A DNA stretch of 43,423 nt, from positions 1 through 43,423 of the IMG/VR virus record IMGVR_UViG_3300042691_043041; one strand, 5' to 3'. Both the position numbers and the translations under genes were made by a program. The notes under the pieces were generated by a model. The model saw only the letters and a list, made by a program, of their open reading frames with translations. It ran no database searches and was not told the origin of the DNA. The DNA is from a virus. Below, one piece after another: positions 3,747 to 39,170 of this stretch. The first letter of the stretch is position 1. Each line of letters begins with the position of its first letter.

Positions 3747-4043
3747 ATGCGTGACGGGAGCTGGTTTGAGCACGACGGGCGCGGCAGCGGCAGCGGCGAC
3801 GGATTCGGCGACGGCGATCGCGTTGGCAATGGCAACGGGCGTGGCAGCGGCAGCGGCGACGGTAACGGCCGCGGGCTCGGAGATTGCCGTGATGGCGGGC
3901 TTGGTCACGGCAGCGGATGCGGCGACGGGTTCGGCTATGGTTTCGGTGTCGGTTCTTATGGCAACGGCGCCGGCGATGGCGCCGGCTATGGTGTCGGGAG
4001 CGGCTCTATTGGCAACGCCAGTGAATGGGGAAAGTATGCCTAA
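3747..4043 (+). CDS. Gly/Asp-rich low-complexity protein D of the array
   Basis: This is a 98-residue protein. The header MRDGSWFEHD begins with the same MRDG as gene C, then the sequence is Gly alternating with Ser, Asp, Asn and Phe (GRGSGSGDGFGDGDRVGNG). The end is SIGNASEWGKYA. GAGG lies six bases before the ATG. This is the only junction in the array with a gap (25 bp after gene C) instead of an overlap. The shared MRDG start suggests C and D arose by duplication. Confidence 0.65.
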   Translation: MRDGSWFEHDGRGSGSGDGFGDGDRVGNGNGRGSGSGDGNGRGLGDCRDGGLGHGSGCGDGFGYGFGVGSYGNGAGDGAGYGVGSGSIGNASEWGKYA

Positions 4044-4338
4044 CAGCAACTGGATCGAGGACGGTGATACTCGCGGCGACTGCGACGGGCGCGGTTTCGG
4101 TTGCGGCGACGGTCACGGCTGTGGTTGTGGTCACGGCGGCGGCAATGGCCGCGGCGGCGGCAATGGCCGCGGCGGCGGCGGTAGTTATGGCTGGGGCGGC
4201 GTCGGCACCGATTTCGGCTGTGGCGATGGCGATGGCTTTGGCGACGGCATCGGCGGCGGTTTTGGGAACACAACAGGTTGTGGCGATGGTCATGGCGATG
4301 GCGACTGCTATGTTGATTCCGACAACGGGCATGGCTAG
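4036..4338 (+). CDS. Gly/Asp-rich low-complexity protein E of the array
   Basis: This is a 100-residue protein with the header MPNSNWIEDGDTRGDCDG, followed by Gly alternating with Cys, His, Arg and Asp (GCGDGHGCGCGHGGG) and a duplicated GNGRGGG. The end is NTTGCGDGHGDGDCYVDSDN. It holds several Cys and His residues. GGGGAAAG precedes the ATG. The start overlaps gene D by exactly 8 bp (ATGCCTAA). Confidence 0.65.
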   Translation: MPNSNWIEDGDTRGDCDGRGFGCGDGHGCGCGHGGGNGRGGGNGRGGGGSYGWGGVGTDFGCGDGDGFGDGIGGGFGNTTGCGDGHGDGDCYVDSDNGHG

Positions 4339-4639
4339 AGGCGACGGATTCGGTGCTGGCCGCGGCGCCGGTTATGGTCACGGCGGCAGCGATGGCGACT
4401 GGTACGGTCACGGCCACGGATTCGGCGCTGGCCGTGGCGCCGGATTCGGCGCCTGTTACGGCGACGGTGACGGCGACGGCGACGGCGACGGCGATGGTTA
4501 CGGCAGCGGCGACCATGGTCACGGCGGCTGTCACGGCGATGGTTACCGCTATGGTGCCGGTTTCGGCGACGGCGACGGCGACGGTAGCGACGGCGATAGC
4601 TGTGGTAGTTTCAGCGACGGGGAATGCGAATATGCTTGA
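4331..4639 (+). CDS. Gly/Asp-rich low-complexity protein F of the array
   Basis: This is a 102-residue protein with almost no header (MARGDGFGAGRGAG). It contains an internal duplication of HGFGAGRGAGFG type and the longest pure Gly-Asp run of the array (ACYGDGDGDGDGDGDGYG). It then passes to an acidic, Cys-containing end (SDGDSCGSFSDGECEYA). The start overlaps gene E by exactly 8 bp (ATGGCTAG). The GACGGC run is a likely slippage site, so its length may vary between phage isolates. Confidence 0.62.
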   Translation: MARGDGFGAGRGAGYGHGGSDGDWYGHGHGFGAGRGAGFGACYGDGDGDGDGDGDGYGSGDHGHGGCHGDGYRYGAGFGDGDGDGSDGDSCGSFSDGECEYA

Positions 4640-4877
4640 TCGGGACGATTTCCGCGACGGCGACGGTGGCGGCGCAGGCAATGCCGATGGTGGCTACGGC
4701 GACGGTAGCGCCGCCGGCGGCGGGGACGGATTCGGCAACGGTCGCAGCTTCGGTCATGCGGACGGGATCGGTTTCGGCGACGGCAACGGTCGCGGTTTCG
4801 GTCATGCGGACGGGATCGGTTTCGGCGGCGGCAGTGGTGTGGGAGAGAACGATCGTGCTGAGTATCTGCGGGACTGA
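4632..4877 (+). CDS. Gly/Asp-rich low-complexity protein G of the array
   Basis: This is an 81-residue protein with the header MLDRDDFRDGDGGG. It has a perfect internal duplication, GRSFGHADGIGFGDGNG then GRGFGHADGIGFGGG, which is also repeated at the DNA level (about 4744-4824). The end is non-repetitive and charged (VGENDRAEYLRD). The start overlaps gene F by exactly 8 bp (ATGCTTGA). Confidence 0.62.
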   Translation: MLDRDDFRDGDGGGAGNADGGYGDGSAAGGGDGFGNGRSFGHADGIGFGDGNGRGFGHADGIGFGGGSGVGENDRAEYLRD

Positions 4878-5193
4878 CTGGTTCAGCTATGGTTACGGCA
4901 GCGGCGGTGGTGAGGGTGACGGTTTCGGCGGCGGCGAAGGTGACGATTTATGCGACGGCAGCGAGGGGTACGGTGCCGAAGGCGATGGTGCCGGCTATAA
5001 CGGCGATGGCGGCGGCGCAGGAGACGGCTACGGCGGCGGGGAGGGTGACGGCTATCCCGACGGTGGCGGGAATGGTCTCGGCAAGGGATTCGCTGATGGC
5101 AGCGGCTATGACGACGACGATGACGGGCTCGCCGCAAGCGAAGGTGGCGGTTACGGTAATGGCTACGGCCACGGCGACGACGGAGACGATTGA
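4855..5193 (+). CDS. Gly/Asp-rich low-complexity protein H of the array
   Basis: This 112-residue protein is the last of the array. GTG start with GGGAGAG upstream. The header LSICGTDWFSYGYG is followed by Gly alternating with Glu, Asp and Tyr (GSGGGEGDGFGGGEGDD), and it ends with the acidic stretches YDDDDDG and HGDDGDD. It uses more Glu and Asp and less His than the others, so it should be strongly acidic. It overlaps gene G by 23 bp. An inverted repeat of the dispersed motif follows at 5201. Confidence 0.6.
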   Translation: MLSICGTDWFSYGYGSGGGEGDGFGGGEGDDLCDGSEGYGAEGDGAGYNGDGGGAGDGYGGGEGDGYPDGGGNGLGKGFADGSGYDDDDDGLAASEGGGYGNGYGHGDDGDD

Positions 5194-5298: not shown

Positions 5299-5604
5299 TT
5301 GCCTTTTCCCAAAGGGCGAGCTAAACTGCATCGCCTGTTCAAACTTGCCGTTGATAGGCAAATCAGTCGGGTGGTCATTGAGCATAAAGATCGGCTTACA
5401 CGATTCGCGTTTGGCGTGTTCGAGGTCTTCTTCAAGAGCCACGGGATTGAAGTTGAGTGGCTTGAGGATGTGCTTCCAAAGTCCTATGAGGCTGAGTTGG
5501 TCGAGGACATGATAAGCCTCATGTCGAGTTTCTCAGCCAGGATTTATGGTCGCAGGAGCGCAGAGAATCAACGGAAGAAGAAGGAAGCCAAAGGTGCAAG
5601 TTAA
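5299..5604 (+). pseudogene. tnpA: IS607-type serine resolvase TnpA, C-terminal fragment
   Basis: The frame encodes only the second half of an IS607 serine recombinase. It has the family signature VVIEHKDRLTRFAF, then FEVFFKSHGIEVEWLED, ELVEDMISLMSSFSARIYGR, and a basic end. The N-terminal MerR-like helix-turn-helix and the catalytic-serine segment (usually YARVSS) are missing. A stop at 5245-5247 closes the frame upstream, and no fragment of the missing half is visible. The protein cannot catalyse recombination, so the element is probably immobile unless a resolvase acts in trans. The coordinate 5299 is a TTG codon, not a proven start. Confidence 0.85.
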
Positions 5605-6763
5605 GAAGGCTTTCAAATACGAGCTTGATTTGAACAACGAGCAGCGAACGGCCTGCCTCAAACATGCCGGCGCCGCACGTTGGGCTTTCAACTTTGGCTT
5701 GCGTCGAAAGAAAGAGGCTTACGCTGCCGGGGAGAAGACGCCAACCGCAGTTGACTTGCACCGGGAACTAAACGCACTGAAACAGTCGGAAATACCATGG
5801 ATGTACGAGGTTTCCAAGTGCGCTCCGCAGGAAGCGTTGCGCAACCTGGACCGGGCGTTCATCAACTTCTTTGAGAAGCGATCCAGGTTCCCGAAATTCA
5901 AGAACCGCAAGCGAGGTATCGGTAGCTTCCGTTTGACTGGCTCCATCCGTATTAGCGGCAAGACGATACAGTTACCTCGCCTTGGACTTCTTCGTCTCAA
6001 GGAAGAATCTGCGGTTGTTGGCAAGATATTGTCCGCGACCGTGAGCGAGAAGGCTGGTCATTGGTTCGTAAGCGTCCAGATCGAAACGTCCATCGCTGTT
6101 CCCGATAACCAAGGGCCGGCGGTGGGCGTTGACCTGGGCGTAAAGGTGCTGGCCACGCTCTCGGATGGCCAAGTGTTTGAGAATCCCAAAAGCTACAGGA
6201 GGAAACTGAATGTCCTGAAACGGGCGCAGCGCACCGTCGCCCGTCGTCAGGAAGGCAGCAAACGGCGAGAACGCGCCAAGCGACGTGTTGCTAGATTGCA
6301 CTACCGGATTGCCAACATTCGGTCAGACGCCATCCACAAGATGACAACCTTCATCGCCAAGCACAGCAGCGTTGTCGGCATTGAAGACCTGAACGTGATT
6401 GGCATGGTGAAGAATCACCGCCTCGCCGGAGCGGTCAGCGATGCCGCATTCGGCGAGGTGCGGCGGCAGCTTGAGTATAAGTGCCAGTGGTACGGCAGCG
6501 AGTTGGTTGTCCACGACCGCTTCATGCCGTCGAGCAAGACATGCTCACGGTGCGGTGAGGTCAAGGATTCTCTGTCGCTGTCGGAACGAATCTTCCGCTG
6601 CGATTGTGGACACGAAATGGATCGTGACCTTAACGCGGCGATGAACCTGCGACCGGGAGTTCCTCGGTCCCTGCGCGTGGAGGCCGGAGCGCTGGCCGTC
6701 GAGAAATCGACGGTGAAACTGCGGCCCGTGAAGCGCGAACCGAACGCTGTGAAGAACAGGTAA
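5594..6763 (+). CDS. tnpB: TnpB RNA-guided nuclease of an IS607-type element
   Basis: This is a 389-residue TnpB, the ancestor type of Cas12 nucleases. The N-terminal part (KKAFKYELDLNNEQR, then AGAARWAFNFGL) is the usual helix-turn-helix/REC region. The split RuvC site is complete: Asp in VGVDLGVKV, Glu in VVGIEDLNV, and Asp in the final DRDLNAAMNL. The zinc finger is CSRCGEVKDS...FRCDCGH. Start: GTG 5594 with AAGGAAG upstream overlaps tnpA by 11 bp. An in-frame ATG at 5546 would add 16 residues. With all catalytic residues kept and its resolvase broken, it may still act as an RNA-guided nuclease. It interrupts the accessory region of the head module. Confidence 0.93.
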   Translation: MQVKKAFKYELDLNNEQRTACLKHAGAARWAFNFGLRRKKEAYAAGEKTPTAVDLHRELNALKQSEIPWMYEVSKCAPQEALRNLDRAFINFFEKRSRFPKFKNRKRGIGSFRLTGSIRISGKTIQLPRLGLLRLKEESAVVGKILSATVSEKAGHWFVSVQIETSIAVPDNQGPAVGVDLGVKVLATLSDGQVFENPKSYRRKLNVLKRAQRTVARRQEGSKRRERAKRRVARLHYRIANIRSDAIHKMTTFIAKHSSVVGIEDLNVIGMVKNHRLAGAVSDAAFGEVRRQLEYKCQWYGSELVVHDRFMPSSKTCSRCGEVKDSLSLSERIFRCDCGHEMDRDLNAAMNLRPGVPRSLRVEAGALAVEKSTVKLRPVKREPNAVKNR

Positions 6764-12909: not shown

Positions 12910-15900
12910 GTGGCCGATACTGGGTGGCAGATAGCGGGATCAGGTGCAAATAAGACAGGCATCGGCACTGAGCCGTGGGATAATCCAGAGCGCATCGTTG
13001 CCGATGATGGGTCGGTCGCCAGTGCGAATGTTTTTGCGACAAATATTGTTTCTAACTGGCTGGTTGCGTACAACTTTGGAACGAATATTACCGGGACTGT
13101 GAACGGGGTCGAGACCCGTGCACAGATGAAAAATAACGCTGGCGGAACGGTTCTATATTATGACAGCGCGGCGCTGATTGACGAGACTAATGCTGTTGTT
13201 GGTACGGTGAAAGAGCCCGGCACAACAATCAGCACGTCGTCATACACGAATTACGATCAGGGCGGCGCGTCTGATACGTGGGGCTGGAGCAGTATATCAG
13301 CAAGCAAGATCAACGATGCTGATTCCGGCTTCGCCGTATCCACTTTCGCTAATTCAACATTCATGACTTCTAACTGCGACGTTTGCTGGCGAAAAGTCTA
13401 CTATACACTGACAACAAATTATAGTCTGACTTGTGACGCGGGTTCGTTCACCGAATCCGGGCAGGCGGCACTATTCGGCGCGAGCAGCGCGGCGGCGGCC
13501 GGTTCATTCACAGAATCCGGGCAGACAGCGGCGCTCGTCGTCGCATACAAATTCGACTGCGTTGCCGGCTCGTTCACTGAGTCTGGTCAAGACGCCTCGC
13601 CGGTCGCCGCATTCAAGGTCGATGCCGCCGCCGCCGCGTTCACGGAATCCGGTCAGGACGCTACGCTCAAGGCGGCGTACAAAATCGCCGGGAATCACGC
13701 CTATCAAGCTTTGCTTTCCGGCCAAGACGCTACGCTCAAGGCGGCGTACAAAATCGCCGGGAATCACGCCTATAACGCAGTAGTTTCCGGCCAAGATGCC
13801 ACGCTCAAGGCGGGTTTCGTGGTCGGTGCTGCCGCAGGGGCGTTCACAGAATCTGGCCAAACCGCCGCATTTCCGGTCGCATGGCGCTTGGATGCCGCCG
13901 CCGGCGCGTTCACCGAATCCGGCCAAGCCGCCGCATTTCCGCTTGCGTGGCATCTCGATGCCGCCGCCGGGGCGTTCACCGAATCCGGCCAAGCCGCGGC
14001 CTTCCCGATCGCTCACGCGGCGCTGAGCGCTGCCGCCGCCGCATTCGTCGAGTCCGGCCAAACAGCCGCCTTCCCGATCGCTTACGCGGCGCTGAGCGCT
14101 GCCGCCGCCGCATTCGTCGAATCCGGCCAAACCGCGGCCTTCCCGATCGGCTACGCGGCGCTGAGCGCGGCGGCGGGCGGATTCGTCGAATCTGGCCAAA
14201 CCGCCGCGTTGTTGGCGGCGTGGCGAATGGACACTGCCGCCGGGGCGTTCGTCGAATCCGGCCAAACCGCCGCATTTTCGGTCGCATGGCGCTTGGATGC
14301 CGCCGCCGGGGCGTTCACCGAATCCGGCCAAACCGCGGCCTTCCCGGTTGCGTGGCGGCTTGACGCGGCGGCGGGCGCGTTCACCGAATCCGGCCAAACC
14401 GCGGCCTTCCCGATCGCTCACGCGGCGCTGAGCGCTGTCGCCGCCGCATTCGTCGAGTCCGGCCAAACAGCCGCATTTCCGATCGCTTACGCGGCGCTGA
14501 GCGCGGCGGCGGGCGCATTCGTCGAATCCGGCCAAACCGCGGCCTTTCCGGTCGCGTGGCGCTTGGATGCGGCGGCGGGCGCATTCGTCGAGTCCGGCCA
14601 AACAGCCGCATTTCCGATCGCTTACGCGGCGCTGAGCGCGGCGGCGGGCGCATTCGTCGAATCCGGCCAAACCGCGGCCTTCCCGATCGCTTACGCGGCG
14701 CTGAGCGCTGCCGCCGCCGCATTCGTCGAGTCCGGCCAAACCGCCGCGCTTTTGGCTGCTTTCCAAGTCTCGGCGCAGCCGGCCGCATTCGTCGAGTCCG
14801 GCCAAACCGCCGCATTTCCCGTGGCGTTCGCTGCGTTGGACGCGGCGGCCGGCTCGATCTCTGTTTCTGGCGTCGCTGCCGCACTTGAGGCGGATTTGCT
14901 CTTTTCGGGCTCGGCGGCGGCGATTGCCGTTGACGGCCAAGCGGTCGATTTTCACATTGCCGTTTCGGTTCCGGCCGCGTTCGGCGCGCTCGCGCTCGGC
15001 GACGGCGGGACCGCGGTTTTGCGCGCCGCGCATATGGCGGTTGATGGTGGCGAGTTCGCCCTGTCCGGGCTCGCGGCGCAGCTTGTTTTCGGCTCGCGGC
15101 TGGATGCCGCCGCCGGCGCGTTCGGTCTGACGGGGCAAGCCTCGCTTCAGGCGGTTTCGTCGGCGGCGGGCGCCGGTGCGTTCTCTGTAAGCGGCGATAC
15201 AACCGGGCTCGCGCTCGCGACTGGATTCGCGGCGGCCGCGTTCGAGCTGACCGGGCAAGCCTCGCTCCGGGCGGCTTCGATTGCCGCGGAAACCGCCGCA
15301 TTTTCCGAGACAGGGCAGGCGGCGGGGCTGATTTCTGCGCGCGGGCTCGATGCGGCGGCCGGATCGTTCGGCGTCACTGGGCAAGACAACAATGGGCAGT
15401 ATGCCCTGAGCACGGCGGCGGGCGCCGCTGGATTCATCGAGGCTGGCCAAGACGTTAGCTTGATGGTGTCGCGCGTTGTCGCGGCCGACGCGGGCGGTTT
15501 CGCGGAGACGGGGCAGGCCGCGGCGCCGGTGTCGTCCCGATCGATCACGGCCGACGCGGGCGGTTTCGCGGAGACGGGGCAGGCCGCGGCGCCGGTGTCG
15601 TCCCGATCGATCGTGGCCGACGCGGGCGATTTCGCGGAGACGGGGCAGGCCGCGGCGCTTCTCGGCGGCGTCGCGCTTTCCGCGGCGGCGGCTGAGTTTG
15701 CCTTGTCCGGCCAAGACGCTGAATCTATTCGCGGTTACGCGATGGAATCCGCCGAAGCCGTTTTCGCGACGAGCGGGGATGTGATCGGGCTGAACGCCGC
15801 GCGCTCGATGGCCGTTGATGCGGGGCAGTTCGACGAGACCGGGCAGACGGGCGCTTTTCACGCTTCTGTGCTGGCGGAAACCGCTGCGTTCATCGAATCC

Positions 15901-17610
15901 GGGCAGGCCGCGGCGCTTCACGCTTCGATTAGCATCGATTTCGGCCAATTTGCGGTTGACGGGCCGCTTGTTGGTCTAGGCTATTCCTTGCGACTTACCG
16001 CCGACGCGGGCGATTTTTCCACGACAGGGCAGGTCGCACAACTCAACGCCGATGCTGCGCAAGACACGGGAACGGGCGCTTTCGATCTAACAACGGTCGC
16101 CGCTGTGCTACGGCACGATGTTGTGCACGGGCACGGAGAATTTTCCTACACCGGGAACGATGCAACGCTGCGGTTCTCGCCGGTGCTAGAAGGCGGCGAA
16201 TGCGCGCTTGTTGTCGCATCGACAGGAACAGAAGCCTATTCTTCGCGTACATTTGCGCTTGATGCAGGCGAATACACGCTCGCCGGGGGCGCGTCTGAGC
16301 GCAAAATGTCGATTGGCGCCGACGCTGGCACGGTGTCTGCGGCAGGAATTGCGGCGGATTTGCCGGCGACTCTCTCGATGAGCGCCGGCACTGGCGCCTT
16401 GTCTCATGTCGGTGTTGCGGCCGGCTTTGGTCGGTCGGTCACTTTGTCGGCGGAAGCCGGTGCGGTGTCGATGATCGGGCTCGCGGCGCTGTTCGGGCTC
16501 GCGCGCATCACAAATGCGGCGGATTTCCTGGAGACTGGCGTCGCCGTTGGGTTAGCTGCGAGATGGGCGCTTTCGGCCGATGCGGCGGTGTTTTCTCATG
16601 CCGGGCAGTTGGTCGATTTCCCGCGGGGTGTGCGGCTAGGATCAGATTCCGGCGCTTTTGTCGAGTCGGGTGCCTCGATCGATGCTCCCACAACTCGCCT
16701 GTTTGATGGCGCGGCCGGCGCGCTTACTTTCGCCGGGCAATCGGCCGCAACAACTGCCGCATGGCGAATCGTCGCCGATGGTGTCGCGTTGACGCTGACG
16801 ACACAAGCGGCTGATCTGAACTCGATTCGCAGCTTGGACGCCAGCGCGCTCGATCTTTCGCTGACCGGGCAAGCCGCGACAACTGGGGCGGCGCACTTGA
16901 TAGCTGCGGAATCCGCCGCATTCTCGCTATCGGCGGTGTCCGCCACCACTTTCGCGGCGCGCATTGTTGATGCGCTAGCGGCGGCGCTTTCTCTTGTCGG
17001 GCAGACTGTCGAGATCGGAACACGATACTTGATGACGGCCGATGGTTTCGGGCTTAGCTTGAATTTGCTCGATTCTGGTCTTGTTGCGGCGCTGTCGTTG
17101 CCGATCGATCCTGGCGCGGCGGCGGTCGGCGGCCACGCCGCGCAATTCCACACATTGACAACGCTGCCGGCCGACGCGGGCGGTTTCGAGGTTGTAGGGA
17201 ACGAGGCGTCCGGGACGGGGATCGCGCGTGCTCTCGCCGCGAACGCGGGGGCGTTCTCGCTCGCGGGTGCAGGAACGGCCACAAACGTAGCGTTGTTAAT
17301 GGCGGCCGGCGCGGGCGAGATCGCGCTTGATGGCGCTGCGGCGGCGCTGACGGCGCGTTGGGCGCTCCAAGCAGACGCGGCGGCGCTGACGATCGGCGCG
17401 GGCTCGGTCGGGGCTGCGGCGACCATGGCGGCCGGTGCGGGCGCGTTCGCGCTCGGCGGACGGGTGGCCGATCTAGTCAACACAAGCAGCATCATCGTTG
17501 AGTTGCTGGCCGATCTAGGTTACAGTAGAGACTTGCTGGCTACACTAGCCACCACCTCAACGTTACTTGGCGGTTACGTGCCAATTGTTGAATTTGAGGC
17601 TGAATTATGA
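12910..17610 (+). CDS. Giant repeat protein of about 60 units of 22 residues, probable virion fibre
   Basis: This is a 1566-residue protein. Residues 1-165 are non-repetitive (NKTGIGTEPWDNPERIVADD, DTWGWSSISASKI). From about residue 176 to near the end it is made of 22- to 23-residue units of the consensus AAAGAFTESGQTAAFPVAWR with D at the boundary. The units are nearly identical up to about residue 640, then drift (AETGQAAAPVSS, later LTGQAA). The end (LLADLGYSRDLLATLA) is again unique. Phages often carry long proteins with AGxFxxxGQxA units, probably β-rich fibres or surface coats. It lies among head-neck genes, not in the tail-fibre region. It overlaps the next gene by 4 bp (ATGA). Confidence 0.75.
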   Translation: MADTGWQIAGSGANKTGIGTEPWDNPERIVADDGSVASANVFATNIVSNWLVAYNFGTNITGTVNGVETRAQMKNNAGGTVLYYDSAALIDETNAVVGTVKEPGTTISTSSYTNYDQGGASDTWGWSSISASKINDADSGFAVSTFANSTFMTSNCDVCWRKVYYTLTTNYSLTCDAGSFTESGQAALFGASSAAAAGSFTESGQTAALVVAYKFDCVAGSFTESGQDASPVAAFKVDAAAAAFTESGQDATLKAAYKIAGNHAYQALLSGQDATLKAAYKIAGNHAYNAVVSGQDATLKAGFVVGAAAGAFTESGQTAAFPVAWRLDAAAGAFTESGQAAAFPLAWHLDAAAGAFTESGQAAAFPIAHAALSAAAAAFVESGQTAAFPIAYAALSAAAAAFVESGQTAAFPIGYAALSAAAGGFVESGQTAALLAAWRMDTAAGAFVESGQTAAFSVAWRLDAAAGAFTESGQTAAFPVAWRLDAAAGAFTESGQTAAFPIAHAALSAVAAAFVESGQTAAFPIAYAALSAAAGAFVESGQTAAFPVAWRLDAAAGAFVESGQTAAFPIAYAALSAAAGAFVESGQTAAFPIAYAALSAAAAAFVESGQTAALLAAFQVSAQPAAFVESGQTAAFPVAFAALDAAAGSISVSGVAAALEADLLFSGSAAAIAVDGQAVDFHIAVSVPAAFGALALGDGGTAVLRAAHMAVDGGEFALSGLAAQLVFGSRLDAAAGAFGLTGQASLQAVSSAAGAGAFSVSGDTTGLALATGFAAAAFELTGQASLRAASIAAETAAFSETGQAAGLISARGLDAAAGSFGVTGQDNNGQYALSTAAGAAGFIEAGQDVSLMVSRVVAADAGGFAETGQAAAPVSSRSITADAGGFAETGQAAAPVSSRSIVADAGDFAETGQAAALLGGVALSAAAAEFALSGQDAESIRGYAMESAEAVFATSGDVIGLNAARSMAVDAGQFDETGQTGAFHASVLAETAAFIESGQAAALHASISIDFGQFAVDGPLVGLGYSLRLTADAGDFSTTGQVAQLNADAAQDTGTGAFDLTTVAAVLRHDVVHGHGEFSYTGNDATLRFSPVLEGGECALVVASTGTEAYSSRTFALDAGEYTLAGGASERKMSIGADAGTVSAAGIAADLPATLSMSAGTGALSHVGVAAGFGRSVTLSAEAGAVSMIGLAALFGLARITNAADFLETGVAVGLAARWALSADAAVFSHAGQLVDFPRGVRLGSDSGAFVESGASIDAPTTRLFDGAAGALTFAGQSAATTAAWRIVADGVALTLTTQAADLNSIRSLDASALDLSLTGQAATTGAAHLIAAESAAFSLSAVSATTFAARIVDALAAALSLVGQTVEIGTRYLMTADGFGLSLNLLDSGLVAALSLPIDPGAAAVGGHAAQFHTLTTLPADAGGFEVVGNEASGTGIARALAANAGAFSLAGAGTATNVALLMAAGAGEIALDGAAAALTARWALQADAAALTIGAGSVGAAATMAAGAGAFALGGRVADLVNTSSIIVELLADLGYSRDLLATLATTSTLLGGYVPIVEFEAEL
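13499..14853. repeat. 66/69-bp DNA repeats within the giant repeat gene
   Basis: About twenty in-frame copies of 66- or 69-bp units share long identical DNA, for example GCATTCGTCGAATCCGGCCA and GATCGCTTACGCGGCGCTGA. Such identity at synonymous positions indicates recent unequal recombination, so copy number is likely to vary. The repeats also create several copies of the dispersed motif (AAACCGCCGCAT). They leave a long antisense frame open, which is an artefact. Confidence 0.85.
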
Positions 17611-25419: not shown

Positions 25420-25772
25420 GCAATATGCTCCCCTCATGGGTTATGCGTTATGTTGGCGTTCCATTTGTCGAGGGTGGCGCCGACATCTCAGGGGCGGATT
25501 GCTACGGGCTGGTTTCGCTTGTGCTCGAAGATCAGACAGGCGCGCCGCTTCCAAGGACTGTCGCGGATGCGGCGGTTTTCGGCTGGCATCCAATCCCTAT
25601 CGGGGAGGTTGCGGCCGGCGACGTTTTGTTGTTCGAGCATCCCGGCGGGTTGACGCACGTCGGGCTAATGGTCACGAGTCAGTCTTACCTTGAGACGCGA
25701 CCGGGGAAGTTCTCTAGAATCGCGCGGTTGCGGCACGCATCGGGAAGAATATCGGTATGGCGACGCGGATGA
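25416..25772 (+). CDS. NlpC/P60 family tail-tip peptidase (gpK-position)
   Basis: This is a 118-residue cysteine peptidase-type domain. The catalytic Cys lies in GGADISGADCYGLVSLVLED and the His in GDVLLFEHPGGLTHVGLMV. These are the two key residues of NlpC/P60 enzymes, which cut peptidoglycan stem peptides. Compared with lambda gpK it lacks the N-terminal JAB/MPN domain. It probably opens the cell wall locally during infection. It overlaps gene J by 16 bp. Confidence 0.85.
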   Translation: MSNMLPSWVMRYVGVPFVEGGADISGADCYGLVSLVLEDQTGAPLPRTVADAAVFGWHPIPIGEVAAGDVLLFEHPGGLTHVGLMVTSQSYLETRPGKFSRIARLRHASGRISVWRRG

Positions 25773-28700
25773 TCCAAGCGCGGTTTCGATCCGCTCCATT
25801 TGCGGCGGTTTCTTGTCGGCGCTCGATCCGTCATGGCGCGTCCGTGGCGGAGATTGTCGATTCTTTCACCGAAGATGGCACGGTGCCGCTGGCTGCTAGG
25901 ATTCAAGTCTCTGTCGGCGGGATTGTGATTCCTGAGGACAAATGGCGGAGCGTCAGGCCAAAAACTACCGCCATTGTCGAGGTATGCCAGATTCCGCAAT
26001 CATCGCAGTCCGCTGTAATGTGGACATCAATTGCGATGAAAGTTGTCGGCACAATTATGCTGTTCTATCCGCCGACGGCGCCTTACGGGGCCGCGTTGAT
26101 AGCAGCATCTACTGCGCTTGATGTGTCGGCAACTTATCTTTTGCCGCCAAAAGAGCCCGGAATTTATGGGCCGGAAGAAGGCAAGTTCGACATTAGCGGA
26201 GCGAATCAAGCTGTGATGTTCGGCGGCGTGCCGACTCTGGCCGGGACTCTCAAGTTTCCGCCGTTCATTGCGGCGGTGGAATTCGTCGAGACAATCGGCG
26301 GGGATAGATTCCTAAACGCGATATTCGCGATTTCTGACGGGCCGGTGACGACACCGACTGTTTGGATTGGGGAAACGCCTATCAGCGAATATAGCGAGGT
26401 CACCACTGAATTTAGGCGCGGTTATTACGCGCTCACTGATAAAGGTTCAGCGGACATTTCTTCCGCGTATCCGTCGAGTCCAGTGTTCGCGGACACTTGG
26501 ACAATATCGGCGCCAGTCACCAAAGACGGCGTTACTTACGTTGTCGGGGATACCATTACTTTCAACGGACTTGCGGCGGCTTCTGAGGCGGCCGCGTGGG
26601 ACAAGAATCAGGGCAAGCCTTTTTCGATTTACCCAAACGACGTTTACGACGAAGTGATTTCAACGGTTGTGTCAGTCGAAAATGGCGCGGTCACGCGAGT
26701 CACCCAGCCCGATACATCTTCGGTGACGTGTGAATTTGTGTGGGAGGGCGGCCTAGTCAACTTCGAGAAAGAGCCGGCTGGCAAGAGAAACGACAAGACA
26801 GCGGGGATCAAGATCGAGTATCGCCTGAACGGCACGTCCGATCCCTGGGTGGTTGGAGTGAATACCGCCGCAAAGGGCAGAAACGCGACTCCGGTTTGGC
26901 GAGGCTATAAATTTCAGCTTCCCGCGGCCGGAAAGTACGACATCCGCGTGACGCGGACGACACCGGACGATGAGAACGACAGGAACGTGTCTGTTTTCAA
27001 GTGGCTAATCTTGCGGTCGATCAGCGCGGCATCGCCCGTTCCGCTACTCGGCGTTGCGATGTTGGCAATCAATATCCGCGCGTCTGAACAACTTTCTGGC
27101 TCGCTGAACACAGTTAAGGTATTGTGCACGTCGATTCTGCGGGATTGGGACGGCGCTAATTGGATTTGGCGCCCGACTGCGAATCCGGCGGCTATCTTCC
27201 GGCATTACCTGCAATCGCCGCACTGGCAGCGTGCGGTTTCCGATTCCTCTATTGATCTTGACGAGATTCAGGACTGGCACGAGTTTTGCACTGCGCTGAA
27301 CTTGCGGTGCAACGCCTATTTTACGGACGATGCGGGAATGCAGGATCGGCTGGCGCAAATTGCGCTGACTGGATTCGCGATGTTCGCCGCAAAGGATGGC
27401 CTCTGGTCGGTTGTGGTTGACAGAGAACGCCCGGCTTACGAGCAGCTATTTACCGCGAGAAACGTTAGGAATTACTCGTGCGAAGTGACGCACCCGGCGC
27501 CGCTTCACTCGATTTCTGTTAATTTCATCGACGAGACATCCGATTATGCGACCAACGAGCGCATTGTTTATGATGACGGCTACGACGAAAATAATGCGAT
27601 CTATACCCAGCAACTTACACTGCCCGGCATAACAAATCCTGGCACCGTCTACAAATATTGTCGCAGACTGCTCGCGGAAAGGAGATTGAGACGGGAGGTT
27701 CATCAATGGGAATGCGATCCTGAAGCGTTGATGTTGGATGTTGGCGCGCGGATTCGTTTCGCTCACGACGTGATCGCGGTCGGGATCGGAGCGGCGAGGA
27801 TTGCCAACTACCAGATTCAGGCCGGGACGGGACTCGTGTCCCATGTTGTTCTTGACACGGCGTTTGAGACGACGGCGGGAGTCGATTATTCGCTGGTCGC
27901 GCGCCCGGCAGTAGGCGATCAGTTGACGATTCGCCTTCAGGAGATGGCCGGCGATGTTTCCGCAATGCCCCTTTTGGTGGCGACCGACGAGGACGATTTG
28001 CCGGAAATCGGGACGCTCGTTGTCTTTGGGATCAGCGGGGCCGAGACAATTGATCTAGTCGTGAAGGGAAAGGTTCCAACAACGGATATGCGGTGCCGAC
28101 TCACCGCGGTGCTGTACCACGAGGGAATCTTTTCCTCGGACACTGGCGATTTGCCGCAGTGGTCCTCGGGATCGGTGGCGGCGCGGTCTTTGGCGGCGCC
28201 GATTGTGATTAGCATCCAAAGCGACACTGCGGTTATGGTGCAGACGCGCGCGGGGACGCTGATTCCCGCGATTCTGGTGAATTTGCAGCCAGTGGCCGTT
28301 CCGGAGCTAACCGTTGTCGCTTCTTGGCGACTGTCGCGCACGGATGGTCAATGGGAGCGCGCATCCGTGACATTCGGCGGAAATTCCGCAACGATTACTG
28401 GAGTCGAGGACGGCGAGACCTATGATCTGAAGCTGTGGTACACGGCGCCGAATTACTTGTCGTCGCCGCCAGCAAATATCAGCGCGTACACCGTGCTTGG
28501 ACGCACGGACATTCCGAGCGCGCTTCAAAACGTCGCCGGGCAAACCATTGGTGGACAAATAGAACTGCGCTGGGATCGGCCCGCTGAGATCGACGTTTTG
28601 ATTGGCGGCGCGATTCAATGGCGCTGGACTCCAGTCACGACGGGTGCCAGTTGGGCGTCGTCTACATCACTGAACGGCGCCGAGATCTCGGGGGCGTCAA

Positions 28701-29335
28701 CGTTTATTGTGCTGCCGCTGAAGCCGGGGACTTATCTCGGCCGGGTGATTGACAGTTTAGGAAATTCTTCCGATGTGGTAGCTTGGCCGACGAAGCAGGC
28801 TTCCGCGTCTACTTTCACCTTGCTTGAGACGGTGATTGAGCATCCAACATTTCCCGGCACGGTCGAAACTTGTTCTGTCGTCGGGTCAGTCTTGCGCCTT
28901 CAAACCGGCTCGATCGACGTTGCGCAGTCGTGGGACGCGATTCCTGAGTTCGACATTTACGGCGAGGGGGTCGCGAGTTTCGGCCGCTACTACTTCGCAA
29001 CCGGAATGGACTTTGAGGCGGTTATTCACGTCCGGCTCACCGCGCTTGTGTTTGCGGCGATGTACAGCACAACCGATCTATGGGATGACCCGACCGATTT
29101 TGTCGATAGCGACGAGGTGATTGACGTTAATACGTCGGCTTCCGGAGATGTTGTTGTCGAGATGCGAGAAACGGACGACGATCCTGGCGGCTCGCCAACG
29201 TGGTCTAGCTGGCGGCGGCTGGATGCTTCGGAAATCGAAGCGCGCGCGGTGCAATTCCGCGCCGTCTTGTGGACGACGGCGGCGAACACAAACATTGACG
29301 TAACGTTGCTTGAAGTAAGGGCAGAAATCCTATGA
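25757..29335 (+). CDS. Tail tip attachment / host specificity protein J
   Basis: This is a 1192-residue protein. The N-terminal 130 residues hold a short ubiquitin-like start (SVAEIVDSFTEDGTVPLAAR) and a hydrophobic segment (VMWTSIAMKVVGTIMLFYPP) like lambda gpI/J starts. The central region is the conserved tip hub: FKWLILRSISAASPVPLLGV, LAINIRASEQLSGSLNTVKV, DWHEFCTALNLRCNAYFTDD, and ISVNFIDETSDYATNERIVY. The C-terminal third is fibronectin-type β domains (WRLSRTDGQWERASVTF, DGETYDLKLWYTAPNYL, ASSTSLNGAEISGASTFIVL). It forms the tail hub and the base of the central fibre. The ATG at 25757 is inside the preceding gene. Confidence 0.88.
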   Translation: MATRMIQARFRSAPFAAVSCRRSIRHGASVAEIVDSFTEDGTVPLAARIQVSVGGIVIPEDKWRSVRPKTTAIVEVCQIPQSSQSAVMWTSIAMKVVGTIMLFYPPTAPYGAALIAASTALDVSATYLLPPKEPGIYGPEEGKFDISGANQAVMFGGVPTLAGTLKFPPFIAAVEFVETIGGDRFLNAIFAISDGPVTTPTVWIGETPISEYSEVTTEFRRGYYALTDKGSADISSAYPSSPVFADTWTISAPVTKDGVTYVVGDTITFNGLAAASEAAAWDKNQGKPFSIYPNDVYDEVISTVVSVENGAVTRVTQPDTSSVTCEFVWEGGLVNFEKEPAGKRNDKTAGIKIEYRLNGTSDPWVVGVNTAAKGRNATPVWRGYKFQLPAAGKYDIRVTRTTPDDENDRNVSVFKWLILRSISAASPVPLLGVAMLAINIRASEQLSGSLNTVKVLCTSILRDWDGANWIWRPTANPAAIFRHYLQSPHWQRAVSDSSIDLDEIQDWHEFCTALNLRCNAYFTDDAGMQDRLAQIALTGFAMFAAKDGLWSVVVDRERPAYEQLFTARNVRNYSCEVTHPAPLHSISVNFIDETSDYATNERIVYDDGYDENNAIYTQQLTLPGITNPGTVYKYCRRLLAERRLRREVHQWECDPEALMLDVGARIRFAHDVIAVGIGAARIANYQIQAGTGLVSHVVLDTAFETTAGVDYSLVARPAVGDQLTIRLQEMAGDVSAMPLLVATDEDDLPEIGTLVVFGISGAETIDLVVKGKVPTTDMRCRLTAVLYHEGIFSSDTGDLPQWSSGSVAARSLAAPIVISIQSDTAVMVQTRAGTLIPAILVNLQPVAVPELTVVASWRLSRTDGQWERASVTFGGNSATITGVEDGETYDLKLWYTAPNYLSSPPANISAYTVLGRTDIPSALQNVAGQTIGGQIELRWDRPAEIDVLIGGAIQWRWTPVTTGASWASSTSLNGAEISGASTFIVLPLKPGTYLGRVIDSLGNSSDVVAWPTKQASASTFTLLETVIEHPTFPGTVETCSVVGSVLRLQTGSIDVAQSWDAIPEFDIYGEGVASFGRYYFATGMDFEAVIHVRLTALVFAAMYSTTDLWDDPTDFVDSDEVIDVNTSASGDVVVEMRETDDDPGGSPTWSSWRRLDASEIEARAVQFRAVLWTTAANTNIDVTLLEVRAEIL

Positions 29336-32821: not shown

Positions 32822-33829
32822 ATGTCGTGGATTCTAAAGAAGATACAGCACGTTTCGCGCTACGACACTGCGGCAAATTTCTCGGCGGCGAACGCAACCT
32901 ATGCGGCCGGGGAGATCACGTGCGAGAGCGACACGAAGATTTTCAAGGTTCACGATGGGTCTACGGCTTACAACTCGGTCCCGGCGATTGGCGGGACCGG
33001 GAGCGCAACGCCGTCCGGGACCGGTGGTGTCCTGCAACGCACTGACAACGGTTCGACGTTGACAAGTGACACGCGGCTTGCGTGGGATAACACCGCTAAG
33101 TCGCTGAAACTCAGCCAAATTTCGTATGACATTCACGCAGCGGGCGCGGTAGCGTCGCCGTGGGTGGTGCCGGCGGCTCAGTTCTGTCCGATCATCACGG
33201 CGTCTGCCTCGACAGATTTAACCGTTCGCGTGCCGACGTCATTCACTCCGACGGCCGGAAAATACATGGAGTGGCTGTTGCGCATCACAAACAGCCACGC
33301 GTCGAACGTCATCCTGATCACGTTCGACACTGGCACCGGACAGTACTCGTACAGTTGGCGCCCGCCGACTCCAGAGATTCTCCCGTCACAGACACGGGAG
33401 TTTGTCATTGCTTGGACGGGCGCCGCGTTTGTGGTTCGCGGGCGTGATATTTCGCCATACGACATCAAGTGCTTTGTCGCCGGGGTACCGTCTGCTTCTA
33501 GCGTGATTTGGGAGGAATATATTCACGCCGGGGGTGGTAGTAACCCTGGGATTATCGTGCCGTTCAACTTGGCTGATGTTGGCACGACGACGCTAGCCAC
33601 TGCGCCAAGTGGCGGGAGTGTCGCGTTCTCGATTCAGCGGCAACCGTCTGGAAGTGGAACATTCACTGAGTTCGGCACGTGTACGTTTGCCAGCGGAAAT
33701 GCTTGGTCTACTTGGTCTTTCCCGAGCGGACGGGTGCAGTTCTATCACGGCGACGTGCTGCGGATTCAAGCGCCGTCGAATCTGTACAGCGCCGCGGGGC
33801 TGCGGTTCATCATGCGCGCCGTTGTTTAG
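32822..33829 (+). CDS. Tail fibre protein 3 with GEI..DT..DG attachment motif
   Basis: This is a 335-residue protein. The N-terminal 60 residues (VSRYDTAANFSAANATYAAG, then EITCESDTKIFKVHDGSTAY) form the small domain found at the start of many phage fibres and hyaluronidases, and similar to the Mtd N-terminal domain. After a Gly/Thr linker come β-rich domains (RVPTSFTPTAGKYMEWLLRI, RPPTPEILPSQTREFVIAWT, GRVQFYHGDVLRIQAPSNLY). No catalytic motif was seen. It probably binds a surface structure or anchors the following tailspike. Confidence 0.72.
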   Translation: MSWILKKIQHVSRYDTAANFSAANATYAAGEITCESDTKIFKVHDGSTAYNSVPAIGGTGSATPSGTGGVLQRTDNGSTLTSDTRLAWDNTAKSLKLSQISYDIHAAGAVASPWVVPAAQFCPIITASASTDLTVRVPTSFTPTAGKYMEWLLRITNSHASNVILITFDTGTGQYSYSWRPPTPEILPSQTREFVIAWTGAAFVVRGRDISPYDIKCFVAGVPSASSVIWEEYIHAGGGSNPGIIVPFNLADVGTTTLATAPSGGSVAFSIQRQPSGSGTFTEFGTCTFASGNAWSTWSFPSGRVQFYHGDVLRIQAPSNLYSAAGLRFIMRAVV

Positions 33830-33840
33830 GGTGGCTTGAC

Positions 33841-36093
33841 ATGTTTCGGATGCTGGCTGGTCAGATTCCATCCCGCCCTATCGGAGTGGCACTAGACGCT
33901 AGCGGCGGGGTGACTCCGCCGCCGCCGCCGCCGGCCGGAACCGGCATGAAACTGGTCGGCTTCGCCGACAACTCGCAGCTGCAGAGTCTGCTCGGCGCAC
34001 GTCAGCTGGACGGGACTCTCTGGCACTCTCCGAACGATTCTTGGGAAAACGCCGCCGCGTCGGCGGCGGTTCCGCCGATCGCCGGCAAGAAATACAACAT
34101 AACCACCCTGCGGACGTGGCTAGCCTCTGTCGAGGCTGGGTACAGTCCTTCTAACAACTCCATTGTCGCGTTGCATCAGCGAGTGGTGAACGGCGAGTTT
34201 GACGCGGGGATTACTGGCCAGTGTAACGCCATTGCTTCGCACACACCGGACTGCTACCTGTACATATTCCACGAATTCAACGGCGGCTGGTTTTCGCAGT
34301 ACGCTGGGTGGAGTCCGACGGTCTGGATTCAGATGTTCCGCCATGTCGCGCAGCTCGCTAAGAGCGTAAACCCGAGATTCAAGATCGTGTGGGCGCCGAG
34401 CTGGAATTACATTCCAAACTGGGCGTCGAATACCAGCGCTCCCGCCGATTTGGCTTCGTACTGGCCGGGCGACGATGTCGTAGATTTTGCGGGGCTCGAC
34501 TGGTACTGCGGCGGCGACGACACGCCAGCGGCGCGCTGGAACGCGGCCATGACGCATTCGTGGGGTGCGCGCGCCGTCGCAGATTTTGGCGCGGCGCACG
34601 GCAAGACGTGCGTCTATCCTGAGTGGGGCCTCTGGGGTACTGACGATCCCTACTGGATCGAACAATCCTACTATTTTTTTCTCGAAACACACGCCGAAGC
34701 TGTCTGCTACTTCAATATTGATGCTTCGGACGGCAGTCATCACCTGTCGCACTATCCACAGAGCGCGGCCAAGTATGGCCAGCTGTTCTCGCAGGTTCCG
34801 CCGGTATCAGAGACGCCTGTTCCTCCGCCGACTGGCGCTGTCGGCCCGCTATACGTGGACGGTAGAATTCTGCGCTACAAATCTGATGGGGCGCCGTTTC
34901 TCTGGATCGCCGACACCAATTGGTGCTGCTGGCGACAGTCGAATTCTAGCTACACGTCGTATCTAGCCACCCGAGTGGCGCAGAAGTTCAGTGTCATTCA
35001 AGCGTTCGTGTACGTGTCCAACTCATACTGGCCGGACTATTCCAGGAAATCCTATGACGGTTCCTATCCGTTCAACGGGGGCAATCCGTTGAGCTGGAAC
35101 ATGAACTACTGGAATATTCTCAAGGCGCGCGCGCAAGAAACGTCTGACAGCGGGCTGTTCTTCTGCCTAATGTGCGGCTGCCCCGGTCGGTCGGAAGAGG
35201 ACTGGAAACTGTACGGTACTACAGACGCTTACAACTGGGGCTACATGCTGGGGGCGCATTTTCGCGGGATTCCCGGCATGATGTTTGGGCTGACGCTGGA
35301 TCGGCACGCAGACTACAGCGATCACTGGGGGATTGCCGAGTTTCGGGCGGAGGCAGAAGGAATCGCGGACGGTTGGAACGGCGCCGCGCAGAATTTCAAC
35401 GGGAGCGCAGACTACTCGACAGTGTTCATCACTCTGCACCCAAGTGGCGACAGTCGATCGACTGGCGCTTACTGGAACACCGAGCCGAGCAACTACATGA
35501 ACGCTCACCAAGAGTGGGGCCGCCCAGATAATATCTATGGGGTAGCGATCGGAGACTACAATCGATCGCCCAACAGGCCGTCCGCTATGGTCGAAGGAAT
35601 CTACGAGTCCGTAGACTCAAATAATGACTATGGCATTTATGTCTCACCGCTGGTGATCAACCAGCAAGCTATGCACAACTTGTTTGCGCGCGCAGGTGTC
35701 ACGTACGGATACTGGCTGCACTGGTTCGACATTTGGAATGGCGACCAAGCAAACGCAGCGGGTGCGTGGAACATGAGCCGAATTTCCAATTGGGTGCGGT
35801 CGCGCCCGTGGTACACGTGGATTCCCGATCAGAGCATAATCACGTCCGGGGAAGGATCGGGGACAACGCGGAAAGTGGCGGTTCGGAATCCTGATAACCT
35901 AACTTGGCACGTCTATTTCCCTAACGGGAGTGGATCGGCCACCCTGAATCTCGACAAGCTGGGATCGGGCGCGTCCGTGACTGGTACTTGGTGGAATCCA
36001 AGTAACGACGAGACGCAAGGAGCTGGGACATACTCGGGCAGTAGGTCATATTCCTGTCCCTATTCTGACGGGATACTAACGCTCACGAGGTAA
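33841..36093 (+). CDS. Two-enzyme tailspike depolymerase: GH26-like plus DUF4038-like glycosidase
   Basis: This is a 750-residue protein. Residues 1-30 are a short attachment part ending in a poly-Pro linker. Residues 36-320 resemble GH26 β-mannanases: CYLYIFHEFNGGWF carries the acid/base Glu (E145), RFKIVWAPSWN and VVDFAGLDWYCGG follow, and VYPEWGLWG holds the likely nucleophile (E261). A second Pro-rich linker (about 322-334) leads to a DUF4038/apiosidase-like TIM barrel: YVDGRILRYKSDGAPFLWIA, DTNWCCW, GLTLDRHADYSDHWGI, and a β-rich end. So it may cleave two linkages of one host polysaccharide. The ATG at 33841 is chosen because the upstream extension overlaps the fibre 3 gene. Confidence 0.78.
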   Translation: MFRMLAGQIPSRPIGVALDASGGVTPPPPPPAGTGMKLVGFADNSQLQSLLGARQLDGTLWHSPNDSWENAAASAAVPPIAGKKYNITTLRTWLASVEAGYSPSNNSIVALHQRVVNGEFDAGITGQCNAIASHTPDCYLYIFHEFNGGWFSQYAGWSPTVWIQMFRHVAQLAKSVNPRFKIVWAPSWNYIPNWASNTSAPADLASYWPGDDVVDFAGLDWYCGGDDTPAARWNAAMTHSWGARAVADFGAAHGKTCVYPEWGLWGTDDPYWIEQSYYFFLETHAEAVCYFNIDASDGSHHLSHYPQSAAKYGQLFSQVPPVSETPVPPPTGAVGPLYVDGRILRYKSDGAPFLWIADTNWCCWRQSNSSYTSYLATRVAQKFSVIQAFVYVSNSYWPDYSRKSYDGSYPFNGGNPLSWNMNYWNILKARAQETSDSGLFFCLMCGCPGRSEEDWKLYGTTDAYNWGYMLGAHFRGIPGMMFGLTLDRHADYSDHWGIAEFRAEAEGIADGWNGAAQNFNGSADYSTVFITLHPSGDSRSTGAYWNTEPSNYMNAHQEWGRPDNIYGVAIGDYNRSPNRPSAMVEGIYESVDSNNDYGIYVSPLVINQQAMHNLFARAGVTYGYWLHWFDIWNGDQANAAGAWNMSRISNWVRSRPWYTWIPDQSIITSGEGSGTTRKVAVRNPDNLTWHVYFPNGSGSATLNLDKLGSGASVTGTWWNPSNDETQGAGTYSGSRSYSCPYSDGILTLTR

Positions 36094-36095: not shown

Positions 36096-36485
36096 GTGCA
36101 GAAACAAACACCAGTTCCGGCGTCGCAAGCGCTTGAGGATGAAGGGAGATTCGGCGGTCATTCGTGCGATGAGCACAGCGCGCGCTTAGCTGCTCAGAAT
36201 AATGAGGTTCTACGCGCGATTAAGCTCCTAGAGGACGCACTTAACGCGCATCTCCGAGAGGCGCGCGACTGGCAAAGAAAAACAGAAGAAATGTTTACAG
36301 CTAGCCTTGATGTTAACTTGCACGACACGCGGACATGGGTCCGGTTGGCTAATGAGCACGCCCCGCTAAGAGCCTTGAACGAGGCTATCCAAAGTGGGCT
36401 TCGGGTTGTGATTACATTAACGATCGCATCCGGTGCGCTGCTTATCGCGACGCATTGGGCGGCTATCAGCGAGGTTGTGAAATGA
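36096..36485 (+). CDS. Small membrane protein with one C-terminal transmembrane helix
   Basis: This is a 129-residue protein starting at GTG. It is hydrophilic and helical (LAAQNNEVLRAIKLLEDALN, then REARDWQRKTEEMF), with one transmembrane helix near the C-terminus (VVITLTIASGALLIATHWAA). It stands first in the lysis cluster and overlaps the next small gene by 4 bp. It may be a holin partner, antiholin or spanin-like protein. No lipobox or N-terminal signal was seen, so the exact role is open. Confidence 0.65.
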   Translation: MQKQTPVPASQALEDEGRFGGHSCDEHSARLAAQNNEVLRAIKLLEDALNAHLREARDWQRKTEEMFTASLDVNLHDTRTWVRLANEHAPLRALNEAIQSGLRVVITLTIASGALLIATHWAAISEVVK

Positions 36486-36703: not shown

Positions 36704-37168
36704 GTGATTGCGCTTGTTTCTATCGTCGTTGGATTCCTGGGCTCTATTGTCCCTAAGCTCTTGGAGCTGTTCTCAGATTCCCGCGACAAGCGTCACGAGT
36801 TGGAGATCATGGATCGCCAAATCGAGATGCAGCGAATCGGCCATTCGCAGCGGCTGGAGGCGATTCAGGCTCAAGCGGACGCGGGGGAACTTGCGGCGCT
36901 TTTGGAGCATGATTCGTCCCTGGAAACTGACAGCGGGTTCATTCAGAATTTGCGGGCGTCCGTCCGGCCGGCGCTAACGTACGCATTCTTTACACTTTTT
37001 TGCGGCGTGAAAATCGCCGCGCTCGTTGTCGGCGTGCGAACGGAAGTTCCGCTGGCCGGGCTATTGCTGATCGTTTGGGATGAATACACCGCGGCGTTGT
37101 TCTCGGCGATTATCAGTTTCTGGTTCGGGCGCCGGGTGTTCGAGAAGGGACGCCGCGATGGTCTCTGA
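36704..37168 (+). CDS. Holin of the 3TM (GTA-type) family
   Basis: This is a 154-residue protein. The N-terminal hydrophobic segment IALVSIVVGFLGSIVPKLLE is followed by a charged helix (DRQIEMQRIGHSQRLEAIQA), then RASVRPALTYAFFTLFCGVK, a hydrophobic stretch, and TAALFSAIISFWFGRRVFEK. This layout, with RPxxxY and the final FWFGxR, is typical of the 3TM holins found in phages and gene transfer agents. It makes the inner-membrane lesion that releases the lysozyme. GTG start. It overlaps the lysozyme gene by 11 bp. Confidence 0.82.
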   Translation: MIALVSIVVGFLGSIVPKLLELFSDSRDKRHELEIMDRQIEMQRIGHSQRLEAIQAQADAGELAALLEHDSSLETDSGFIQNLRASVRPALTYAFFTLFCGVKIAALVVGVRTEVPLAGLLLIVWDEYTAALFSAIISFWFGRRVFEKGRRDGL

Positions 37169-37733
37169 CGAAATGGCCAATAAAATCAAGGTGTTCGAGG
37201 GGTTGCGCCGACAACCCTATCTGTGCCCTGGGAATTATTGGACGGTTGGTTATGGTCACGCGCTTGGAACGGGGAAGCCGGGCGCGATTCGCGCGCAAGA
37301 GATCAGGAATCGGGGCGGGGTCAGCGATGACGAAATCGCCGCAATGTTTGCGGCGGATTTGCGGATCAGCGAACGTGCCGTTGCGCGGCTGATTAAACGC
37401 GCGCTGAAGCAGCGGGAATTGGATGCCCTGGCGTCGTTTACGTTCAATTTAGGGAGCGGGGCGCTGGAACGCTCGACTCTTCGAATGCGCGTAAATCGAG
37501 GCGAACCGGCGGCCGCGGTTCGCCGGGAGTTCTTGCGCTGGGTGCACAGCAATGGTAAGGTGCTGCCCGGACTCGTGATTAGGCGAAAAGTTGAGGCCAA
37601 TCACTATGAAGGGCGCGCGGGTGCTGAGGAAACAATTCCGGCACCGGCGCCGCGGCCAAAACCGCCGCAACCCGCGTTTACCTGGAAGTGGTTGTGGGAG
37701 TCCATCGTTGCCGGACTGAGGAAACCAAAGTGA
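37158..37733 (+). CDS. Endolysin: GH24 (T4-type) lysozyme
   Basis: This is a 191-residue muramidase that cleaves the glycan backbone of peptidoglycan. The catalytic Glu lies in KIKVFEGLRRQPYLCP, followed by the active-site segment WTVGYGHALGTG. The helical lobe is LDALASFTFNLGSGALERST and GLVIRRKVEANHYEGR. A Pro-rich tail (APAPRPKPPQPAF) and a short amphipathic basic helix (TWKWLWESIVAGLRKPK) extend it; the helix could disturb the outer membrane. No N-terminal signal-arrest sequence, so it depends on the holin. The ATG at 37158 gives the normal family start. Confidence 0.9.
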   Translation: MVSDEMANKIKVFEGLRRQPYLCPGNYWTVGYGHALGTGKPGAIRAQEIRNRGGVSDDEIAAMFAADLRISERAVARLIKRALKQRELDALASFTFNLGSGALERSTLRMRVNRGEPAAAVRREFLRWVHSNGKVLPGLVIRRKVEANHYEGRAGAEETIPAPAPRPKPPQPAFTWKWLWESIVAGLRKPK

Positions 37734-38444: not shown

Positions 38445-39170
38445 CTAGGTGCTCAGGCACCATTCATGGTAGAGGTCGGATAGGAATTTCTTCTCCATTT
38501 TGCGCAACGCGCGCTTATGGAGGTGCACCCTAGACAGTCCTGGATATCGTTCCAGGATCTTGGTTTTCTGATCACGGTAATATTCGGCATACGGTCCGCC
38601 AGTTCGGACCATTGTTGCGCCAATTGAGTGCATGAGCGCTCGCCGATGCGGCGAATACCCCATGACTTGCGCGAGCCGTGGATCTGTAGATCGGCGTTGG
38701 CACACGCTTTTGCCTTCGTGCACCACAAGCCCAAGGCCGAATCGTTTCCATAGCGCGGCCTCGTTGCGGTATTCGGCAAGATCGCCGGCGCCCGCGATTA
38801 TTGCGCCAAGTGAGACTTCGCCGATTCCGCGCATCGACGCTGCCCAATACCAAACCGGGAGTCTATGGACTAAGCTCTTGATTTCTTTCTCAAGTTCGGC
38901 GATCGGCGCCTTGAGTATGTCACGCGCCGCGGAAAGCGCCGGATAGGCGGCTTCGGCCGCGGCGATCGCCTCGGGAGACACAACGCCCGTTGTGTCCGAA
39001 ATCACTTCTCCGGTATCTTGGACGCGAGTGCGCGCAAGGCCACGTGCCTTGGCCTTTAGCTGCAAGGTCAGGTTTGTTCTGGCCTTGACCAGCGCTTTTC
39101 TGTGGTTGGACGCCGCCGTGATTTCCTCGATCAGCTCCGGAACGGGGCTGATTCTAATCCCATGACTCAT
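38445..39170 (-). CDS. Stand-alone IS110-type C-terminal (Transposase_20-like) protein
   Basis: This is a 241-residue protein on the minus strand. The C-terminal 130 residues match the IS110/IS116/IS902 C-terminal domain: MRGIGEVSLGAIIAGAGDLA, then YRNEAALWKRFGLGLVVHEG, MGYSPHRRALMHSIGATMVR. The first 110 residues are helical (HRKALVKARTNLTLQLKAKA) and lack the DEDD RuvC-like domain that starts IS110 transposases. It is therefore not a simple transposase. I recall a family of such phage and prophage proteins of unknown role. It is the last gene of a leftward operon. No IS ends were seen. A structure-specific DNA-binding role is plausible but is inference. Confidence 0.7.
   Translation of the reverse strand: MSHGIRISPVPELIEEITAASNHRKALVKARTNLTLQLKAKARGLARTRVQDTGEVISDTTGVVSPEAIAAAEAAYPALSAARDILKAPIAELEKEIKSLVHRLPVWYWAASMRGIGEVSLGAIIAGAGDLAEYRNEAALWKRFGLGLVVHEGKSVCQRRSTDPRLAQVMGYSPHRRALMHSIGATMVRTGGPYAEYYRDQKTKILERYPGLSRVHLHKRALRKMEKKFLSDLYHEWCLST

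Follow-up and report, generated by a model that had tools for sequence, protein, structure and literature searches.

A late phage gene joining a GH26-type and a DUF4038/GH140-type barrel, a candidate two-enzyme polysaccharide depolymerase

Why would a phage carry, between its tail fibre and lysis genes, a single protein built from two glycosidases of different types? The question is raised by a reading frame in the viral record IMGVR_UViG_3300042691_043041, which was analysed over its whole length of 43,423 nucleotides (the window). A preliminary description, made from the letters alone, saw in its product a tailspike attacking a mannan-like main chain and a branched decoration. With moderate confidence, I read it as a late two-enzyme polysaccharide depolymerase that would help the phage through the exopolysaccharide or capsule of its host. 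This reading builds on what the data support directly: both folds, catalytic residues that are intact, and the place of the gene between tail-fibre and lysis genes. The genes that define this place are the following.

25757-29335 (+): central tail fibre/tip protein J, with which the receptor-interaction region begins (phrog_31, E 1e-85)
32822-33829 (+): preceding gene, a fibre that carries an Mtd_N domain (PF18454, 5.1e-6, barely over the cut-off; phrog_31660, tail fibre)
33841-36093 (+): two-domain glycosidase gene, GH26-type and DUF4038/GH140-type, 750 aa, intact open reading frame
36096-36485 (+): next gene, encoding a small protein that contains a hydrophobic stretch in its C-terminal part; the lysis region probably begins here, judging from this sequence and the lysozyme that follows
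37080-37733: lysozyme (Pfam/PHROG match)

The two-enzyme gene is tightly packed between the Mtd_N fibre and the lysis genes on the same strand, which bears out its claimed late position in the tail region. Its placing "after three fibres" is right in outline though not as a list, the genes ahead of it being J, two unnamed fibre-like ORFs, two short ORFs and the Mtd_N fibre. The ATG at 33841 follows the end of the upstream gene at 33829 after a gap of 11 bases, and the next start lies 2 bases after the stop codon that ends at 36093; the start listed mechanically for this ORF, a GTG at 33679, falls within the upstream gene. That the gene is bacterial cargo, or an assembly chimera, with no role in the phage seems highly improbable to me. 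Such an origin would agree with the absence of close relatives from 50,697 phage records and from pattern-based scans of IMG/VR, but the short gaps to phage genes on the same strand speak against it, as does a GC content of 0.579 against 0.585 for the window, together with a third-position GC that fits the window and lies slightly above that of the neighbours. Nothing in the sequence suggests a chimera.

The closest relatives of J by coverage come from phages of Rhizobium, Rhodobacter and Bradyrhizobium (26-30% identity), and an alphaproteobacterial host is therefore likely. One related phage (L006), with a J that is 36% identical, has the fibre genes, a small gene and the lysozyme in common with the window and holds no match to the two-enzyme protein. 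Another J relative (L157) encodes downstream of J a GH26-type protein of 554 aa that has additional N-terminal sequence and a Gly linker (profile E 5e-22, pairwise E 3e-4), on which the Pfam GH26 model stays below threshold. By their Pfam matches, the 79 ORFs found downstream of J in the relatives include GDSL esterases, one chondroitinase-B-like protein, lectin-like Laminin_G, Mtd, S74 and collar domains and others, and the region after J appears to be a site at which surface-acting modules are interchangeable. In the loci L119-L182, the ORFs downstream of J include one with a match to a reverse transcriptase and two with a match to Mtd domain 2, which suggests a diversity-generating element at this place in some of the relatives.

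Elsewhere in the window, a protein of 1566 aa (12910-17610, +) lies between the head and tail genes and consists mostly of copies of a 22-23-aa repeat (like GAFTESGQTAAFPVAWRLDAA), with a 69-base period in its DNA at 13828-14819 and no match to a Pfam or PHROG family. Short tandem repeats with periods of 6-48 occupy about 3090-5060, and a 51/102-base repeat lies at 407-636. The gene at 5546-6763 (+) is of the IS605 OrfB/TnpB type with a Cas12f1-like TNB domain, and its best phage relatives are transposases of an uncultured phage and a cyanophage (46-51% identity); a Mu-like phage, considered from the "transposase" match, was rejected on this assignment. Directly after the lysis region, an ORF at 38445-39170 (-) shows transposase similarity (phrog_4285, 2.3e-13) and no Pfam match.

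Within the two-enzyme protein the following parts can be told apart.

33841-33942 (+): short N-terminal peptide MFRMLAGQIPSRPIGVALDASGG and Pro-rich linker (sequence)
33943-34800 (+): GH26-type TIM barrel, aa 35-320 (PF02156, AlphaFold2 model, fold match)
34273-34275 (+): E145, proposed acid/base, HEFNG, after strand 4 (invariant in 17 aligned GH26-type domains; aligned to the HE-NG of CtLic26A)
34621-34623 (+): E261, proposed nucleophile, YPEWG, strand 7 (invariant in the 17; strand 222-230 of the model)
34786-34848 (+): second Pro-rich linker, joining the barrels, about aa 316-336, SQVPPVSETPVPPPTGAVGPL (sequence)
34840-36090 (+): DUF4038/GH140-type TIM barrel and C-terminal beta domain, aa 334-750 (PF13204, PF12904, model)
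35299-35301 (+): D487, proposed acid/base, LTLDR for the family GGDR, after strand 4 (invariant in 50 sequences; aligned to the GGD of BT_1012, 5msy)
35593-35595 (+): E585, proposed nucleophile, MVEGIYE for the family DGEPxYE, strand 7 (invariant in the 50; aligned to the GEP of BT_1012, 5msy)

Pfam profiles and the fold matches of the AlphaFold2 models agree with the earlier claim that two different types of TIM-barrel glycosidase are combined in one protein, and the Pro-rich linkers reported for it are found at aa 24-34 (TPPPPPPAGTG) and at the junction of the barrels. The 23 aa ahead of the first linker hold no recognised domain, show by inspection no hydrophobic core of a signal peptide and have no significant relative within the window or the fetched loci; together with the linker they are a possible segment for attachment to the virion. 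The term "tailspike" fits this architecture poorly, as both large domains are TIM barrels, with no beta-helix and no recognised anchor domain.

The first barrel is recognised by PF02156 when the domain is scanned alone (E 1.9e-5, 24.6 bits over a cut-off of 20.2, a partial match to profile positions 155-262 of 311), the profile being absent at E<=0.1 from a scan of the full-length protein, and phmmer matches the domain to the lichenase CtLic26A at 1.5e-4. Its AlphaFold2 model, built from an alignment of 17 sequences, reaches a pLDDT of 80.6 and a pTM of 0.83, with poor quality in parts of residues 31-69 of the domain; the top Foldseek match is again CtLic26A (E 9.5e-13) and the highest VIA matches are GH26 enzymes. 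The two Glu residues that had been seen in the sequence are indeed in place as E145 and E261. The His that precedes E145, the canonical GH26 residue, also stands in the aligned CtLic26A and is replaced by Trp in most of the phage relatives. A retaining beta-glycanase with endo activity is the probable identity of this domain. The mannan-like main chain proposed for its substrate is not supported, since the nearest GH26 structures are CtLic26A (Z 23.9) and the mixed-linkage xylanase AlXyn26A (Z 23.0), followed by BoMan26A (Z 21.9) and, lower still, other mannanases. The structural evidence leans slightly towards a glucan- or xylan-type main chain, and a chain resembling beta-glucan or beta-xylan is at least as likely a substrate as mannan.

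The second barrel is recognised in the scan of the full-length protein, PF13204 (DUF4038, apiosidase-like) covering aa 341-658 with 92.9 bits against a cut-off of 26.5 (E 3.8e-26, profile 4-319 of 320). PF12904 matches at aa 661-735; its label "collagen-binding" should not be taken as a guide to function here, and the segment is modelled as the C-terminal beta domain that is also present in GH140 structures. From 50 input sequences AlphaFold2 gave a model with a pLDDT of 89.5 and a pTM of 0.91, which matches the GH140 apiosidase 8t9w with a Foldseek E of 4e-30 and a Z of 45.7 (rmsd 2.4 Å, 394 residues aligned), and BT_1012 (5msy) with a Z of 41.0. The catalytic pair of this enzyme, which the preliminary description had been unable to see, can be located at D487 and E585. 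The Asp and Glu of BT_1012 with which they align are chain positions 167 and 264 by my own count, an offset of 20 from D187 and E284, which I take to be the catalytic residues of that enzyme. Structure prediction, proposed earlier as a check, thus yields for both domains TIM barrels with catalytic pairs after strands 4 and 7, and in both models this placing of all four carboxylates is the arrangement of clan GH-A.

The domain nevertheless departs from its relatives at 27 of the 75 positions conserved in at least 85% of them (family-conserved positions in general), five of the 27 being invariant in the other 49 sequences, and the changed motifs include those that end strands 3 and 4. The removal of apiose, as suggested for this enzyme, is put in doubt by these 27 changes even though the catalytic pair is kept. 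Because of them the domain is best named DUF4038/GH140-type, with no assigned specificity, and the many deviating residues also make its activity uncertain. By analogy with the family it probably attacks a side sugar in the exo mode. The same changes could be taken to mean that one or both barrels are inactive and serve as lectin-like binders of a receptor; I find this improbable, as all four catalytic carboxylates are retained and the GH26-type domain keeps the canonical His-Glu with the subsequent Asn-Gly.

A somewhat less improbable alternative, though still an unlikely one, is that of an auxiliary carbohydrate gene, the product of which would be released at lysis to degrade polymers of the plant cell wall (mannan or mixed-linkage glucan, and apiose-bearing pectin) and so feed the host population. 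GH140 is known from the breakdown of the pectin RG-II, and in bacteria, free-living ones and those of the gut, the relatives of both domains are for the most part glycosidases that stand alone. Against this stand the N-terminus, in which inspection reveals no signal peptide, the position of the gene, within the late tail/lysis block and not among metabolic genes, and the surface-acting modules at the corresponding locus of related phages. A plant polymer is possible as the target, since enzymes of GH26 and GH140 also act on plant cell walls; a polymer of mannan and apiose is one of several possible substrates.

In the depolymerase reading, I infer enzymatic activity, a host polysaccharide as the target, attachment to the virion and a division of labour between the barrels. 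The GH26-type barrel would cut a beta-linked glycan in its main chain, with E145 as acid/base and E261 as nucleophile, and the GH140-type barrel, acting as a retaining exo-type enzyme with D487 as acid/base and E585 as nucleophile, would remove a side sugar or trim the products, while the flexible Pro-rich linkers might allow both to work on one polymer. The protein may be carried on the tail or be freed at lysis, where it would clear the slime around neighbouring cells. Only tentatively can this be narrowed to a tail-borne protein in which a GH26-type main-chain cutter and a GH140-type debrancher of new specificity act in sequence on an undescribed branched exopolysaccharide of the host.

No close relative of the whole protein was found in the 50,697 phage records, the IMG/VR contigs (pattern-based scans) or GTDB genomes. 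A scan of viral contigs with two peptide patterns returned no relative of the GH140-type domain, and the sole "phage" match to GH140, MT835628 (L003), was rejected, as its neighbours resemble other glycosidases and a sugar transporter; this record, although labelled bacteriophage, looks like a bacterial polysaccharide-utilisation locus. Among bacteria, 80 GH140 relatives were kept of 474 confirmed candidates (22-29% identity over the best segment), and just two of their loci (L044 and L064) also hold a GH26 gene, so that a common substrate of the two families is not suggested. Genomes of the class of locus L039, a Terriglobia record, yielded no fusion to GH26, and their apiosidase-domain matches are at most 32% identical among the matches listed. 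The collections searched, by patterns or BLAST and non-exhaustively, yielded no other GH26-GH140 fusion and no convincing phage GH140, and a literature search on phages with GH26, DUF4038, GH5 or apiose found nothing relevant in the library searched. Each enzyme family, and phage depolymerases as such, are already known; the pairing of GH26 and a GH140-type domain in one phage protein appears to be new, as far as these sequence searches reach.

GH26-type domains by themselves recur in phages. When IMG/VR was scanned with a small alignment, 22 viral relatives were found. In phages that are not related to this one, GH26-type genes occur in structural regions as well: after the tape-measure gene in L031, next to tail proteins in L023 and L026, and next to the terminase in L021 and L025. 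Several of the phage proteins (L014-L035, L157) carry the domain on Pro-rich, Gly-rich, repeat or collagen-like linkers. They possibly form an underdescribed group of phage depolymerases, which might find use in tailored degradation of exopolysaccharides. Phage depolymerases have mostly been studied as single beta-helix tailspikes. If the tail-borne two-step design were true, it would represent the first phage GH140-type enzyme and an unreported depolymerase design, and a double TIM-barrel protein with a main-chain cutter and a possible debrancher would mean that certain phages are probably equipped with small enzyme pathways for crossing complex slime layers.

How does this protein compare with known systems? 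Classical capsule depolymerase tailspikes, which are usually beta-helical trimers anchored at the N-terminus, share its proposed role and its genome position, whereas the phage protein consists of two TIM barrels and has no known anchor; the role of the N-terminal anchor in such tailspikes has been described (PMC12692247). The first domain resembles CtLic26A, the GH26 lichenase of Clostridium thermocellum (2bv9, 2vi0, 2cip), in its fold (Z 23.9, 2.9 Å over 254 residues), in the HE-NG acid/base motif, in a D-x-Y on strand 6 and in the Glu on strand 7, but shares only 20% identity with this enzyme, which belongs to a bacterium rather than a phage and has no GH140-type domain fused to it. The second resembles 8t9w and BT_1012 (5msy/3kzs) over the entire barrel and the C-terminal beta domain (Z 45.7 and 41.0), including the catalytic Asp and Glu; it differs in an identity of 22-24%, in the replacement of the family motifs PTWG and GGDR by CGCP and TLDR, and in its fusion to GH26. 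Large phage proteins with a TIM-barrel glycosidase are also found in BFVD, for example in the Pseudomonas phages POR1 and Skulduggery and the Erwinia phage phiEaP8; these are of the GH5 or an unspecified type, and their BFVD names indicate no GH140-type partner, and none of the proteins listed by the BFVD search is named GH26. The GH26-type phage proteins from IMG/VR (L014-L035, L157) are only 21-29% identical over the alignment and none has a GH140-type domain, but they share with the protein studied here the domain family and the catalytic Glu pair, and several of them likewise lie in tail or structural modules and carry linkers.
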